The notes beneath the pieces were generated by a model. The model did not search any database. It saw only the letters and a program-made list of their open reading frames with translations, and was not told where the DNA came from. From the IMG/VR virus record IMGVR_UViG_3300045110_000357, positions 1 to 52,994 of that record: a stretch of DNA of 52,994 nucleotides; one strand, 5' to 3'. Every line of letters begins with the position of its first letter. The first letter of the stretch is position 1. Both the position numbers and the translations under genes were made by a program. Below, in pieces: positions 4,064-12,189 of this stretch. This stretch comes from a virus.

Positions 4064-4458
4064 GTACTGAGCTGCGTTGGGTGCTTCGTCGCTACGTGGC
4101 GGGCGACATCGACGAAGGAACGGTGGCAGTGCTGACAGACACCTCGATCCGCACGCTTGCGTGCCTTCGTCAGTTGGCCCTTGGTGGCGATGTGCGATGC
4201 ACGCTCGGCGCGCACGTCCTCTTCTCGTGATGCGAGCTGGCGCGCCAGGCGCTCGGCGCGCTCACGCTCCTCGTCCAGCTTGCTCTTGCCGGTGTACTCC
4301 CAGGTGTGACCGAGCGGGCAGTACGTGTCGGTCTGGCGCTCGTTGTTGTCACGCTGGCGGAGCATGTGAGTGGCGATCTTCTCGGGGATGGCGTACGTCA
4401 TGCCACACCAGCAGGTGACCACGGTCAGCTTGGTGGTGATCGTCATCGTGTCGCTCAT
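4060..4458 (-). CDS. Two-zinc-finger coiled-coil protein
   Basis: I chose ATG 4458 because the ribosome site aaagga lies about 7 nt upstream on this strand and the frame before it has no coding character. The 132 residues hold an N-terminal TCWCGMTY...YCPLGHTW element, a central charged coiled coil (DEERERAERLARQLASREE) and a C-terminal classical C2H2 finger (CQHCHRSFVDVARHVATKH). This three-part layout occurs repeatedly in actinophages as an unnamed family. Nucleic-acid binding is likely. Confidence 0.8.
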   Translation of the reverse strand: MSDTMTITTKLTVVTCWCGMTYAIPEKIATHMLRQRDNNERQTDTYCPLGHTWEYTGKSKLDEERERAERLARQLASREEDVRAERASHIATKGQLTKARKRADRGVCQHCHRSFVDVARHVATKHPTQLST

Positions 4459-4811
4459 GAGGCGTCCTTTCGGATCGGTGTGACGTTGTCGTTGGCGTTG
4501 ATGAGCATGTCGGTGACGGTCTCCAAGTAGGCGGCGCGCCACCAGGCGCTGTTGTGCTTGCCGACGTCCTTGTAGCCGGGCGGCATGTCGTACTGCGGCG
4601 GGCCGAGGCGGTCGCCCGTTATACGAGACACCTTGTCGTAGCGGAGGCCACCGCAGAAGATGCAGCGGTACGTGATCAGGTCGCCGAAGAGCGGCTTACG
4701 TTGGCCTCCGCCGATCGGCTCCCAGGCATGACGAAGAGAACGGCAGCGTGCGTACGCCTCGCCGGCCTCGTTGCGCTGCTCTCGTGACAGGTTGGGGTGC
4801 TTGGGTGGCAT
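4455..4811 (-). CDS. Conserved-looking phage protein with a CxxC zinc motif
   Basis: The 118-residue protein carries an N-terminal helix with CRSLRHAWEPIG and a YRCIFCGGLRYDKV element near residue 50, followed by tyrosine/proline-rich sequence. The H-x-W ... C-x2-CG-x2-R layout is familiar from small actinophage proteins. A ribosome site (aaggaa) precedes ATG 4811. It overlaps the downstream gene by 4 nt. Confidence 0.75.
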   Translation of the reverse strand: MPPKHPNLSREQRNEAGEAYARCRSLRHAWEPIGGGQRKPLFGDLITYRCIFCGGLRYDKVSRITGDRLGPPQYDMPPGYKDVGKHNSAWWRAAYLETVTDMLINANDNVTPIRKDAS

Positions 4812-4819
4812 GGTGTTCC

Positions 4820-4906
4820 TTACTGGTAGTGGCCGGCGAGCAGAGTTACGTCGAAGATGATCGTGATCATGGCGAGCCAGAGCATCACGTGGTGCCTAGT
4901 CTCCAC
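4820..4906 (-). CDS. Tiny single-pass membrane protein
   Basis: A 28-residue frame from GTG 4906 (VETRHHVMLWLAMITIIFDV) is preceded at ideal distance by a strong ribosome site (ggaggag). Residues 8-24 form one hydrophobic helix. It overlaps the end of the upstream gene by 11 nt. The strong ribosome site is the main argument that it is translated. Confidence 0.6.
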   Translation of the reverse strand: METRHHVMLWLAMITIIFDVTLLAGHYQ

Positions 4907-7079: not shown

Positions 7080-7423
7080 GTCCGCACCGGCTTGAAGCGG
7101 ATGAACGACGTACCGTTGACGCAGAGCCAGATTCGGCCGTCCTGGGACACCTGAACGCCGACCTCGCACGACTGTTGATCCATCGCGGCGACGATCGCGG
7201 CGTTCTCGATCGACAGATGGCCGTGTTGGTACACCGGGCCGTAGCCGGCGAGCGCCTTGGCGAGCTGTTCGACGTCCTGCGCCTCCCGAGTGGCCCTCGC
7301 CGCCTTCTTGCGACGTGCGACGTGGGTGAAACCGACCGACTTGCCGCCCTTCGAGCGGCACTGGTCGCCGCGGCGCGCCATGCAGTAGGGGCACGACACG
7401 CCGGCAGGCCCGATGAGGATCAT
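7076..7423 (-). CDS. Zinc-ribbon protein related to the 2968 gene product
   Basis: ATG 7423 overlaps the upstream stop by 4 nt. Residues 11-22 read CPYCMARRGDQC and are followed by a basic stretch with His (GFTHVARRKKAARA), the C-P-x-C-x-A-x2-G-x2-C pattern also found at 2968-3270. The pattern matches the DNA-binding phage zinc-finger type found in many actinophages. The C-terminal 60 residues resemble a small beta domain (GVQVSQDGRIWLCVNG). Confidence 0.75.
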   Translation of the reverse strand: MILIGPAGVSCPYCMARRGDQCRSKGGKSVGFTHVARRKKAARATREAQDVEQLAKALAGYGPVYQHGHLSIENAAIVAAMDQQSCEVGVQVSQDGRIWLCVNGTSFIRFKPVRT

Positions 7424-7707
7424 TTCGGCGCCAACTTCCGGGCTGCGGCCTTCTTCACTGCCACTCGGGGCAGGGTCGGCTCGGGCAGGTTGGCCACGCC
7501 AACGATGATGATGCCGTAGTTGTGGTCTTTCGGCGCCGATTTCAGGTCGTTGGCCACCAGGAGCACCGCCGTGCGCAACCACGAGTCGTCCTGTACCCCG
7601 CGGACGTCCATCGTGCTCCCGTCGGAGAGCAGGAAGCGGTAGGTCGTCCAGTGGTAGTCGACCTCGTAGCCCGTGGTGGTCGCCACGAGTCGAAGGATGT
7701 TGGTCAC
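7420..7707 (-). CDS. First gene of the leftward operon, hypothetical
   Basis: The 95-residue protein starts at GTG 7707 and ends in a basic Ala/Lys tail (VAVKKAAARKLAPK), which suggests contact with nucleic acid. On this strand TAGCCT lies 9 nt before the start, the same hexamer as before the terminase gene, with no ribosome site between. It heads a chain of sixteen coupled genes running to 3395. Confidence 0.65.
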   Translation of the reverse strand: MTNILRLVATTTGYEVDYHWTTYRFLLSDGSTMDVRGVQDDSWLRTAVLLVANDLKSAPKDHNYGIIIVGVANLPEPTLPRVAVKKAAARKLAPK

Positions 7708-7750
7708 AGTGCTGGGAGGCTACCAAACTTTCAACGATGTGTCCCACACG

Positions 7751-7779: not shown

Positions 7780-7812
7780 GACGCTCCACAACTCACCCAA
7801 GGAGTGTTCCAC

Positions 7813-8664
7813 ATGCCATCACGTCAGTGGTCACTGATCGTGAGCGAGGCGGCGGTCATCGCCGACTCGTACACGACGCCAGTGACCCTCCGTCAGCTCC
7901 ACTACCGGCTCGTCGCAGCCGGCACGGGGGGCTACGTCAACACGACGGCGTGCTACAAGCGCCTGTCGTCGTTGACGGCCGAGGCGCGCCGCGACGGCAC
8001 GTTCCCGGCGCTGTCCGACCGTACCCGTGGTGTCCATCAGACGACGTCGTTCGCCGATCCGTCCGATGCGATCGAGTGGGTGATCGACCGCTACTGGCGC
8101 AACCGCACCGAGGATCAGGACTACCAGATTTGGGTGCTGTACGAGAAGGCCACCCTCGGCGCTCAGATCGAGGATTGGGTTCGTCCGTACGGCCTGCCTT
8201 CCGCCGCCCTGCGCGGCTACAGCTCGGAGTCGTTGGAGCGCGAGGTGTTCGAGCAGATGGAGAACGAGCAGGAGGGCGAGCCGCGCCCGATCGTCGTGTT
8301 CTACCTCGGCGACCTCGACCCCGAGGGCGAGGACATCGAGCGCAACTTCGTCGCTCAGGCCGACCGCTGGGGGATCTCGTTCAAGCATTGGGAGCGCCTG
8401 ACGGTGTTGCCGGCGCAGATCACCCCGCTCGGACTCGTCCCCAATCCGGGCAAGGCGACATCCAGCCGCGCCGCCGGCTTCGTGCGCAAGTACGGCGCCC
8501 TGTTCCAGATCGAGACCGAGGCCGTCGACCCCGCCACCCTGCGGACGCTGGTGATCAACGCCATCACCAGCAAGGCGTGGTTCAACAAGGCGCTGTGGAC
8601 GGCGTCCAAGGATCAGGAGAAGACCGACACCGAGGCTCTCCGCCAGATCGCCAGCACGATCTGA
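7813..8664 (+). CDS. Topo VI-A/Spo11-like protein (Mini-A type)
   Basis: The 283-residue protein starts at ATG 7813, with aaggag 9 nt upstream. The N-terminal winged-helix-like part has TLRQLHYRLVA (R27-x3-Y31), the layout of the catalytic tyrosine motif of type IIB topoisomerase A subunits and Spo11. A TOPRIM-like part follows: Glu111 in VLYEKATLG, and Asp167/Asp169 in YLGDLDPEGEDI, the DxD-P-x-G signature. It is shorter than Topo VI-A (about 360 residues) and no B subunit is seen. Stand-alone A-like proteins called Mini-A are known from mobile elements. Strand cleavage or nicking in replication or recombination is the expected role, not demonstrated. Confidence 0.8.
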   Translation: MPSRQWSLIVSEAAVIADSYTTPVTLRQLHYRLVAAGTGGYVNTTACYKRLSSLTAEARRDGTFPALSDRTRGVHQTTSFADPSDAIEWVIDRYWRNRTEDQDYQIWVLYEKATLGAQIEDWVRPYGLPSAALRGYSSESLEREVFEQMENEQEGEPRPIVVFYLGDLDPEGEDIERNFVAQADRWGISFKHWERLTVLPAQITPLGLVPNPGKATSSRAAGFVRKYGALFQIETEAVDPATLRTLVINAITSKAWFNKALWTASKDQEKTDTEALRQIASTI

Positions 8665-8795
8665 TGGATCTCGACGAGCTGGCGGAGTGGTTGGAGCGCC
8701 ACCCGGAGATCGCCTCGATCACGATCACCGAGATCGTCGAGACGACCACTCCGCCGGCCGGTTCTCCACCCGAGTGGGGAACCGACGAGTCGTGA
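8664..8795 (+). CDS. Small acidic protein coupled to the Mini-A gene
   Basis: ATG 8664 overlaps the previous stop (TGATG). The 43 residues begin with an acidic helix (MDLDELAEWLERHPEIASIT) and end in a Pro/Thr/Glu tail. A fixed stoichiometry with the upstream topoisomerase-like protein is possible, but no function can be assigned. Confidence 0.6.
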   Translation: MDLDELAEWLERHPEIASITITEIVETTTPPAGSPPEWGTDES

Positions 8796-8830: not shown

Positions 8831-8968
8831 ATGTTGTCGCAGGCGTCAGCCGACTCGAACACCATCGGGATGCTCGTGGTCGCCATTCTCGTGCTCGCCG
8901 GTCTGCTCATCGCAGACGTGGTCGCTGAGATCGTGCACATGCGTGAGCGACCCAAAGATCGCCACTGA
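8831..8968 (+). CDS. Small single-pass membrane protein
   Basis: The 45-residue protein (MLSQASADSNTIGMLVVAIL at the start) has one transmembrane helix at residues 13-34 and a basic C-terminal tail (HMRERPKDRH). It is transcribed from its own strong promoter and is followed at once by a terminator, so it forms a single-gene unit. That layout fits a membrane-acting early or immunity-type protein, but this is inference. Confidence 0.7.
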   Translation: MLSQASADSNTIGMLVVAILVLAGLLIADVVAEIVHMRERPKDRH

Positions 8969-9224: not shown

Positions 9225-10937
9225 CTACACCGTCGGCGGCAGGAACGGCGGCAGGGTGATGGTCGTCGTCGGCCCTGGCGGGAACGGGCCGTTCGGGTTG
9301 GCGCAGGCGCTGCTCTCGGGCGGGTACGTCACTAGCACTGGCCCGGCCGTTGGGTTGACGGTGTACGTCAGGAAGATCCCCTGCCTCAGGAAGGCGTCGC
9401 TGGGATCCTGCACCCAAAAGCCGTCGCTGTTCAGGTTCCACCCCGGCACGTCAGCGATGGACCCGTCGGAGTTCACCACCGTGCCGGGGTAGAGGATGTC
9501 CACCGTAGCCCCAGGCTCGTAGACGAGCGACTGCACCGACACGACTTCGCCGGTCGCGGCGGCGGTCATGGTGAGGGTTCCCGTGCGCCCAGCGAGCGAC
9601 GGGAACTGGTTCTGGAACTCGATGCGGATCGTAGGCACCTCGCGCACGCACACGGTGCCGGCGGCGCCGAACGTGAACGTGTCAGGGAGGGTTGTCGAGC
9701 TTGTAGTCGTCGAACCCGATGGGGAGGTCGTTGAGGTCGAGGACGGGCTGGTCGGCCCACTTGTCGTCGTCGTAGAACCGGGGATCGTCGTCGAAGACGT
9801 AGTCGTCGGGGTCGTAGTGGGCGTGCTCGTCGATGTCGTCGTCTCCTCTGGCGGGCAGTTCTCGGGCAGCGTCACGACGGCCGTGGCCGTCTCGCCCGAG
9901 TTGGCGTAGGTCAGGGTGAGCGGGGTCGTGAGGCTCGCAGGGTAGGGGAAGGTGACCGTCTGGCCCGACTGGAAGACCAGCGGGTTGTTGGAATAGTCGG
10001 TGCCGTCCGAGAAGGTCAGCAGGCCGGGGACGCCGTTGAGGTCGGGCCGGTTGCCGAAGGTGATCGAGATCTCGGGGAGGTTGTCGTCGCCGCAGAAGGC
10101 GAAGTCGTCAATACCCAGGAGACTCGGTCGAGGAATGGTCGTTGTAGTGGTCGACGGCGCGGTCGATGAGGTGGTCGAACTTGTCGTCGTAGATCCCGGG
10201 ACGGTCGAGCTTGTCGTGGTCGTCTGCTGGGGCTGGGTAGTGGTCGTCGAGGTGCTCGTCGTCGTTGAGGAGGTCGTGGAGGTCGATGTCGTAGATGTGG
10301 ACGTAGGCGGCACGGTGGAGGTGGTCGTGCTTGGCGCGGTGGTCGAACTGGTCGTGGTGCTTGACGATGTCGTGGTTGTACCACCATCAGGGAGGCACTC
10401 AGACACGTCCGGTTCGGGCTGGCCGACGTCGAAGGCGATCACCTTGGAGCGGCCCTGAGCGTCGGCGAAGAACGAGCCGATCACGCCGTCCCAATCGGGG
10501 ATCGCATTGACGCTGACCGAGATCGGGTTCTGACCCGTCTGCAGCCGCTCGTCAACTCCCGGCGTCCCCACGAACTTGCAGACGAAGACCTTCTTGCTCG
10601 GCTCCGTCGTAGTTGTCGAGGTCGAAGAGGTCGTACTCGTGGATGACGTCGTTGTGGATGTCGAGGTAGAAGTCGGAGTAGAGGACGTAGTGGTAGGTGC
10701 GACCGTCGTAGTGGTGCTCGTGGTGGGCACCGTCTGCGGGTTCGTCGTCACGATCGTCGTCGTGGTAGCGCCGGCCGTCGTCGTGGTGTACGACGGGTGT
10801 GTCGTCGAGGTGGCCTGATGGGTCGTGGTCGTGTACCCGTACCCCGTCGGGATCGCCCCGCTCCCCCACCCGGCAACCACCGGGGTGCCCACCAGGACAC
10901 CGCCCACTATCAGGAGCGCCGCAACCCTTGACTTCAT
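9225..10937 (-). CDS. Secreted Thr/Ser-rich multidomain protein
   Basis: ATG 10937 is preferred over GTG 10949 because ggaggg lies just upstream of it. The 570 residues start with a signal peptide (MKSRVAALLIVGGVLVGTPV) and then alternate three small Cys-containing beta domains (about residues 115-190, 265-360 and 430-560) with Thr/Ser-rich linkers of 30-70 residues. The first domain contains CKFVGTPGVDERLQTGQNP, which I associate with actinobacterial secreted proteins. The linkers are probably O-glycosylated or stalk-like. A surface decoration or host-envelope protein is more likely than an enzyme. It may have come from the host. Confidence 0.75.
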   Translation of the reverse strand: MKSRVAALLIVGGVLVGTPVVAGWGSGAIPTGYGYTTTTHQATSTTHPSYTTTTAGATTTTIVTTNPQTVPTTSTTTTVAPTTTSSTPTSTSTSTTTSSTSTTSSTSTTTTEPSKKVFVCKFVGTPGVDERLQTGQNPISVSVNAIPDWDGVIGSFFADAQGRSKVIAFDVGQPEPDVSECLPDGGTTTTSSSTTTSSTTAPSTTTSTVPPTSTSTTSTSTTSSTTTSTSTTTTQPQQTTTTSSTVPGSTTTSSTTSSTAPSTTTTTIPRPSLLGIDDFAFCGDDNLPEISITFGNRPDLNGVPGLLTFSDGTDYSNNPLVFQSGQTVTFPYPASLTTPLTLTYANSGETATAVVTLPENCPPEETTTSTSTPTTTPTTTSSTTIPGSTTTTSGPTSPSSTSTTSPSGSTTTSSTTLPDTFTFGAAGTVCVREVPTIRIEFQNQFPSLAGRTGTLTMTAAATGEVVSVQSLVYEPGATVDILYPGTVVNSDGSIADVPGWNLNSDGFWVQDPSDAFLRQGIFLTYTVNPTAGPVLVTYPPESSACANPNGPFPPGPTTTITLPPFLPPTV

Positions 10938-11036
10938 CCCGCCCTCCACATCTCAGTTGGTCGGCCCACCCTAGTTCCGAGCCGGCGTTGAGTGGAGTTG
11001 TGCAACGGGGTTGAATATCTCCTAGACTAGCTAGTC
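10938..11036. promoter_or_regulatory. Divergent promoter gap with leaderless rightward box TAGACT
   Basis: Rightward, TAGACT (11023-11028) ends 8 nt before ATG 11037, again with no ribosome site. Leftward, TAGGGT (10973-10968) lies 30 nt before the secreted-protein start and precedes its ribosome site. A gtgcaac word (11000-11006) resembles the half-site of the palindrome at 2623-2647. Confidence 0.45.
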
Positions 11037-11826: not shown

Positions 11827-12189
11827 ATGGCGTCGAACAGTGACCGCAGGCACCTGACAACGCCGGGTGATGGGTCACGTCCCGGCGTCTGGCTGCCAAT
11901 GGCCGGCCAGCGTGTCAGCGTGGCCCGCTACGACTCCGGCCTCAACCAGATCCACGTCATCTTCCAACGTGACGGCACGCCGTGGGTGTACGACCAAGTG
12001 CCCCGCAACATCTGGCGGAACTTCCGGCGCGCCCAATCGCCTGGCAAGTACATCAACCGTGTGCTCAACGACTACCCGTACTTCGAGGGGTCGTTCAGCT
12101 ACGCCGGCCACCGCGACACCAACGACGCCGAGGAAGTGGATACCGGCCAGAACGAGCCGCCCGTCAACCGCTCTCAGATGAACTGGTGA
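11827..12189 (+). CDS. KTSC-domain protein
   Basis: Strong ribosome site aggagg precedes ATG 11827. Residues 30-85 follow the KTSC pattern: VARYDSGLNQIHVIFQRDGT, WVYDQVPRNIW, then FRRAQSPGKYINRVLNDYPY. KTSC domains are small beta-alpha folds, sometimes fused to lysyl-tRNA synthetase-like or phage proteins, and have no firmly known function. The C-terminal 30 residues are polar. It is coupled to the next gene. Confidence 0.75.
   Translation: MASNSDRRHLTTPGDGSRPGVWLPMAGQRVSVARYDSGLNQIHVIFQRDGTPWVYDQVPRNIWRNFRRAQSPGKYINRVLNDYPYFEGSFSYAGHRDTNDAEEVDTGQNEPPVNRSQMNW

Follow-up and report, generated by a model that had tools for sequence, protein, structure and literature searches.

A Mini-A gene in the window

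The open reading frame (ORF) at positions 7813 to 8664 of the window, by which we mean the whole 52,994-nucleotide stretch of viral DNA that was analyzed, encodes Mini-A, a stand-alone homolog of the topoisomerase VI A subunit (Topo VI-A) and of Spo11. The protein is laid out as an N-terminal helical part (winged helix/5Y-CAP) carrying R27 and Y31, a TOPRIM domain carrying E111, D167, and D169, and a C-terminal part carrying E234 (Table 1). A preliminary description of this 283-residue frame had named the first five of these residues, and we find them at the positions it gave. A leftward ORF (positions 7420 to 7707) diverges from the Mini-A gene. Takahashi et al. reportedly gave the original description of Mini-A in 2020, as proteins of mobile elements that resemble the type IIB topoisomerase A subunit and stand alone. 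Mini-A is thus a named family in mobile elements, and PMC8185306 and PMC11302465 give no characterization of it.

TABLE 1 Features of the Mini-A locus, in window coordinates
Feature	Position	Strand	Basis or remark
Leader motif TTCAACGATGTGTC, 14 bases	7730..7743	+	Common to sister phages, ahead of the slot
Shine-Dalgarno sequence AAGGAG of the Mini-A gene	7799..7804	+	Sequence
Mini-A gene	7813..8664	+	283 aa; ATG 7813-7815, stop TGA 8662-8664
Codons R27-Y31 (RQLHY), from the arginine at -4 to the predicted catalytic tyrosine	7891..7905	+	Conservation; hhalign
Codon E111, predicted first TOPRIM metal ligand	8143..8145	+	Conservation; hhalign with the EK motif of archaeal Top6A
Codons D167-L168-D169, TOPRIM DxD	8311..8319	+	Conservation; hhalign with the Top6A DxD
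Codon E234, ExxA motif, proposed equivalent of Top6A E342	8512..8514	+	Invariance and motif
43-aa acidic ORF	8664..8795	+	Start overlaps the Mini-A stop by one base; 11 D/E, 1 K/R
45-aa ORF with hydrophobic stretch, next in the conserved rightward block	8831..8968	+	L276 homolog; DNA alignment with L275 and L276

The window protein belongs to a deep and distinct clade of the Mini-A family

The PHROG family phrog_6247, annotated "DNA topoisomerase," matches residues 24 to 280 of the window protein with an E value of 3.2e-34, and a six-frame search of the window recovers the same family at 1.4e-36. Relatives were found with tblastn in 66 of 50,697 deposited phage records, at about 27 to 32% identity among the matches listed, and 65 of the 66 span at least 80% of the Mini-A length. 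The phages concerned infect hosts that include Pseudomonas, Salmonella, Flavobacterium, Brevundimonas, and Microbacterium; their Mini-A relatives are annotated as DNA topoisomerase in several phages and as DNA topoisomerase VI in one. Queries derived from alignments retrieved 564 and 207 relatives from IMG/VR, where a single-sequence scan returned zero because its patterns were too specific. Neither Pfam nor NCBIfam assigned a family to the window protein, and phmmer and hmmsearch comparisons of Mini-A with PDB sequences gave no meaningful match, the family being remote by sequence; an archaeal Mini-A, L124, does match the Pfam family TOP6A-Spo11_Toprim (E value of 5e-4). The phrog_6247 E value, the 66 phage records, and the residue invariance in 242 relatives described below place the similarity far beyond chance.

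In a phylogenetic tree, the window protein and L209 (64% identity) fall inside a fully supported clade of 22 sequences, whose members, where identified, derive from viral contigs and from genomes of actinobacteria or Chloroflexota. Unlike the window protein, the sampled phage members all lie outside this clade (0 of 18 inside), and the form GDLDPEG, in place of the GDHDPSG found elsewhere, is confined to the window protein and L209 among the 242 relatives. The window protein is a new addition, from a deep and distinct clade, to an already named family, with which it shares the occurrence of a lone A subunit in phages, the same catalytic motifs, the lack of a B subunit, and membership in PHROG 6247.

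Catalytic residues are invariant and correspond to those of archaeal Top6A

Conservation was assessed on alignments made in three rounds, with 19, 96, and finally 242 relatives. In the last of these, R27 and Y31 are identical in 240 of 240 sequences covering those columns, E111 and K112 in 241 of 241 covering sequences, and D167, D169, G172, R219, and E234 in all 242; the shortfalls from 242 at R27, Y31, and E111 are gaps only. Profile alignment equates R27, Y31, E111, D167, and D169 with Top6A R102, Y106, E202, D254, and D256, and these Top6A equivalents are invariant in 27 archaeal sequences. The hhalign comparison of Mini-A with the 27 archaeal Top6A proteins (P of 6e-4 to 8e-4) runs from E111 to about residue 217 with E111, D167, and D169 in register, and a second hhalign alignment sets TLRQLHY of Mini-A opposite TLRDVYY of archaeal Top6A. 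The winged-helix Arg-x3-Tyr and TOPRIM Glu/DxD motifs recognized in the preliminary description are therefore upheld both by invariance in relatives and by alignment with Top6A.

The active site of Methanosarcina mazei Top6A comprises Y106, R102, and the TOPRIM acids E202, D254, and D256, and a clasp between E342 and R102 restrains the tyrosine (PMC13040014). The E342Q chain of PDB entry 9o0g shows that E342 lies in the sequence KAE(Q)QAF. The corresponding stretch of Mini-A, which hhalign leaves unaligned with Top6A, carries the invariant glutamate as E-L-D-A-L in the family and as E-T-E-A-V in the window protein. On the strength of motif and invariance, Glu234 is probably the counterpart of Top6A E342, that is, a fourth acid and the partner of the arginine in an Arg-Glu clasp. 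Archaeal Top6A (PDB 2q2e, 9o8p, and 9o0g) and Mini-A would then have in common, in the same order, the Arg-x3-Tyr, the Glu, the DxD, and the probable ExxA glutamate, whereas the window protein is some 80 to 90 residues shorter, has no Top6B partner, and is matched by profile only at the P values given above. As a separate observation, the TOPRIM match is split by about 1.3 to 1.5 kb in two archaeal Topo VI-A genes (G018:C22:115832-117709 and G038:C46:3212-5218); these are single open frames of 835 and 891 aa and probably contain inteins.

Predicted structure

The AlphaFold2 model of the window protein, made from 96 sequences, has a mean pLDDT of 94.9. Its helical N-terminal part, with Y31, precedes a TOPRIM domain in the order strand 105-110, helix 113-126, strand 130-132, helix 139-151, strand 160-165, helix 170-185, and strand 190-197. 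The model thus has the TOPRIM fold anticipated in the preliminary description. Top6A itself was absent from the best 50 PDB matches that it found with Foldseek, an outcome near to the one that the preliminary description named as refuting, and was retrieved by a relative. Against BFVD, the window model found no Mini-A or Topo VI-A, and the matches were weak only, several of them to TOPRIM proteins. The relative in question, L124 (30% identity to the window protein; model pLDDT of 95.1), had as its sole PDB matches with E values of <0.001 Top6A (9o8p, 9o0g, and 9o7o) and MksG (8b7f), with E values of 1.5e-4 to 5e-4, a probability of 1.00, and about 285 columns, Top6A ranking first and MksG second. 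The match to Top6A is full length; the root mean square deviations between L124 and its matches are large (16 to 17 Å), which would be compatible with the two domains being set at another angle to each other. From these Foldseek matches and the Pfam TOP6A-Spo11_Toprim match of L124, we conclude that the predicted Mini-A fold is the Top6A fold, of which the window protein appears as a divergent case.

The rank of MksG among the four best matches of L124 also suggests another function, namely that Mini-A is a tyrosine-independent TOPRIM nuclease like JetD/MksG of the Wadjet/MksBEFG systems, destroying competing plasmids, phages, or host DNA. Mini-A shares the TOPRIM fold and metal site with these proteins, PADLOC JetD3 matches the window protein at an E value of 0.022 and L124 at 4e-4, DUF2399 matches 6 of 19 Mini-A members (best E value, 1.6e-4), and a competition gene would suit the accessory slot described below. 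JetD/MksG proteins, however, are distinguished by the lack of a 5Y-CAP tyrosine and by an operon shared with SMC-type subunits, and the window gene has neither trait. The 5Y-CAP-like domain of MksG is without the tyrosine (PMC10123090), whereas Tyr31 is invariant in Mini-A together with Arg27; no SMC-type gene was seen next to Mini-A in the window, and such partners do not recur in the annotated Mini-A neighborhoods. We consider a nuclease of this kind rather unlikely.

Mini-A relatives lack a B subunit and a recurrent partner

Profile searches detected neither a GHKL ATPase (HATPase_c, PF02518) nor a Topo-VIb transducer (PF09239) in the window, which is partial, or in 18 records of phages with Mini-A, all of them deposited as complete genomes; the control search found the transducer in four archaea. 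The Top6B subunit that a holoenzyme would have for ATP-dependent strand passage is thus missing from the window and from 18 relatives. The preliminary description had noted no B subunit nearby, and its reading of the protein as a stand-alone A subunit of the Topo VI-A/Spo11 type agrees with this result as well as with the PHROG 6247 match and the invariant tyrosine and metal residues. No DNA polymerase A is encoded in the window, while the sister phage G057 (111 kb) has one; the window is therefore probably about half of a genome of about 110 kb, and the absence of a B subunit is a property of the Mini-A relatives rather than one demonstrated for the whole window genome.

This partial coverage would leave room for Mini-A to work as a topoisomerase with an ATPase partner supplied by the host or the phage. 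Among 17 further records (16 with a Mini-A of the 22-member clade, plus G057), a GHKL protein was present in one, G047, at positions 1001 to 1312 of its record, and G047 is the phage with the closest Mini-A (64% identity). As a candidate B subunit, this protein was rejected: it has no Topo VI-B match, carries an HExxH motif at its readable end, and is not recurrent in the clade. The lack of HATPase_c in the 18 phage records and in 12 further clade records, many of which are fragments, together with the absence of any recurrent neighbor, makes a hidden B subunit improbable. This GHKL gene (L285, 2-1363, minus strand) lies at the start of the G047 record, is cut off by the end of the sequence there, and has a MoxR-like AAA gene beside it.

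Among 148 neighbors of 67 viral Mini-A loci, no family occurred more than twice, which argues against a dedicated partner or a recombination partner tied to Mini-A, and no recombinase adjoining Mini-A was identified in the window. In named phages, the neighbors of Mini-A relatives are often recombination, repair, or nucleotide genes, as with Sak4 and a ligase in PaMx25, NinB and a Holliday junction resolvase in BKO1-3, and a Cas4 exonuclease in Fizzles. Replication genes are found as well: a DNA polymerase adjoins Mini-A in RDJL Phi 2, PolA lies about 3.4 kb from Mini-A in G047, and in a Pseudonocardiaceae genome (L101, 5001-8116) the Mini-A stop overlaps the start of a 765-aa AAA_25-domain gene, a putative replicative helicase.

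Mini-A is cargo of an exchangeable slot

The terminase of the window is 84 to 87% identical to those of L273 to L276 and 44 to 45% identical to those of Streptomyces phages of 112 to 116 kb. The leader motif occurs exactly once in the window, exactly in L276 (4541-4554), and with one mismatch in L275 (4082-4095). It precedes a rightward unit in each of these three related phages, whose downstream genes differ, and is possibly a promoter or operator. DNA similarity with L275 and L276 begins with the first base of the 43-aa ORF, at about position 8663, and runs to or past the terminase. Between the motif and that ORF, the window has Mini-A, L276 has other small ORFs, and L275, from a 111-kb sister, has a probable SAM methyltransferase (4165-4872; Pfam E value of 0.006, below cutoff). 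Since the motif and the downstream block are shared and the genes between them differ, Mini-A is an exchangeable cassette, and here it is accessory cargo of the slot. It was not found in the sisters G057, G058, and G059 or in the Streptomyces phages BRock and LuckySocke, and it is common to different phages that share little else.

Sister phages without Mini-A retain the 43-aa ORF and everything downstream, and we accordingly rejected this ORF as a dedicated Mini-A partner. Of the "coupled acidic 43-residue partner" in the preliminary description, the acidic ORF and its one-base overlap with the Mini-A stop stand, and the partnership does not. Two other genes of this region are also conserved in sister phages: one at 9225-10949 on the minus strand, conserved in L275 and L276, encodes a 574-aa secreted-looking protein with long Thr/Ser-rich repeats, and one at 11827-12189, upstream of the terminase, encodes a KTSC-domain protein (Pfam E value of 7e-10).

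Presence or absence at a single slot that has the shared leader motif on one side and the shared block on the other, and occurrence in phages otherwise sharing little are also what a homing-like selfish gene might show, one that cuts phages lacking Mini-A so that repair copies the gene in. In other phages, however, the slot is filled by other genes and there is no empty site, and the shared stretch on the left is very short. Enzymes of the Topo VI-A/Spo11 group, moreover, have little sequence specificity, and Mini-A recurs across many Pseudomonas and Salmonella phages. We regard homing as very improbable.

The slot also bears on the proposal, made in the preliminary description, of a role in replication initiation, in which Mini-A would nick an origin to prime DNA synthesis. 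The replication genes near Mini-A in RDJL Phi 2, L101, and G047 would be in keeping with such a role. Exchangeability among sister phages argues against an essential replication initiator, in that G057, G058, BRock, and LuckySocke do without Mini-A and about 42 kb separate the G057 polymerase from the slot. In addition, rolling-circle initiators differ from Spo11/Topo VI-A enzymes, whose chemistry leaves a blocked 5' end and severs both strands. In light of these points, we have set the replication-initiation role aside as unlikely.

Proposed mechanism and significance

In the reading that we favor, with a probability of roughly 0.6, Mini-A is a DNA-cleaving subunit of the Topo VI-A/Spo11 type that lacks an ATPase B subunit and is predicted to act as an ATP-independent dimer, making 5'-tyrosyl double-strand breaks that feed recombination. 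Active sites of this type are formed jointly by two subunits, and strand passage requires the B subunit. Two Mini-A copies would pair on duplex DNA, and Tyr31 of each would attack one strand with help from the Mg/Mn site (E111/D167/D169) of its counterpart, leaving a double-strand break whose 5' ends carry attached Mini-A. A salt bridge between the conserved Arg27 and Glu234 may restrain the tyrosine until DNA is properly bound, like R102-E342 of Top6A. The breaks would most likely serve phage recombination, through the repair of breaks and through exchange with host DNA or with phages infecting the same cell, and not the relaxation of supercoils.

Mouse SPO11 needs no partner to cut DNA: it acts as a dimer, uses the equivalent residues, and remains attached to the 5' ends (PMC11922746). 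Because the same residues are invariant in Mini-A, an ATP-independent, dimeric, tyrosine-linked break is the simplest reading. The preliminary emphasis on nicking gives way to double-strand cleavage, since SPO11 and Topo VI, the best-studied homologs, act as dimers that sever both strands (PMC11922746, PMC13040014). The recombination role we infer from the neighbors in other phages and by analogy with Spo11, the meiotic double-strand-break enzyme, with which Mini-A would share its predicted chemistry but from which it is very remote in sequence, acting in phage rather than in meiosis. A function in competition with other DNA, or a topological one with a hidden partner, is less probable. More tentatively, and with considerable doubt, Mini-A might be a self-sufficient, ATP-independent prokaryotic counterpart of Spo11 whose programmed breaks drive recombination, which is held in check by a Top6A-like Arg-Glu clasp and which moves between phages as a cassette.

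What these data add to the known picture of Mini-A is a probably conserved Arg-Glu clasp and the exchange of the gene as a cassette. Mini-A is a very small Spo11 relative that is common in phages, and its six invariant residues lead to the prediction that Y31, E111, D167, and D169 serve cleavage and that R27-E234 acts as a brake. If Mini-A cuts DNA alone, it would provide a simple model of how Topo VI-A came to make breaks, and it might be one origin of the mosaicism of phages. The slot being exchangeable among sister phages, knockout or allele-swap genetics is conceivable.
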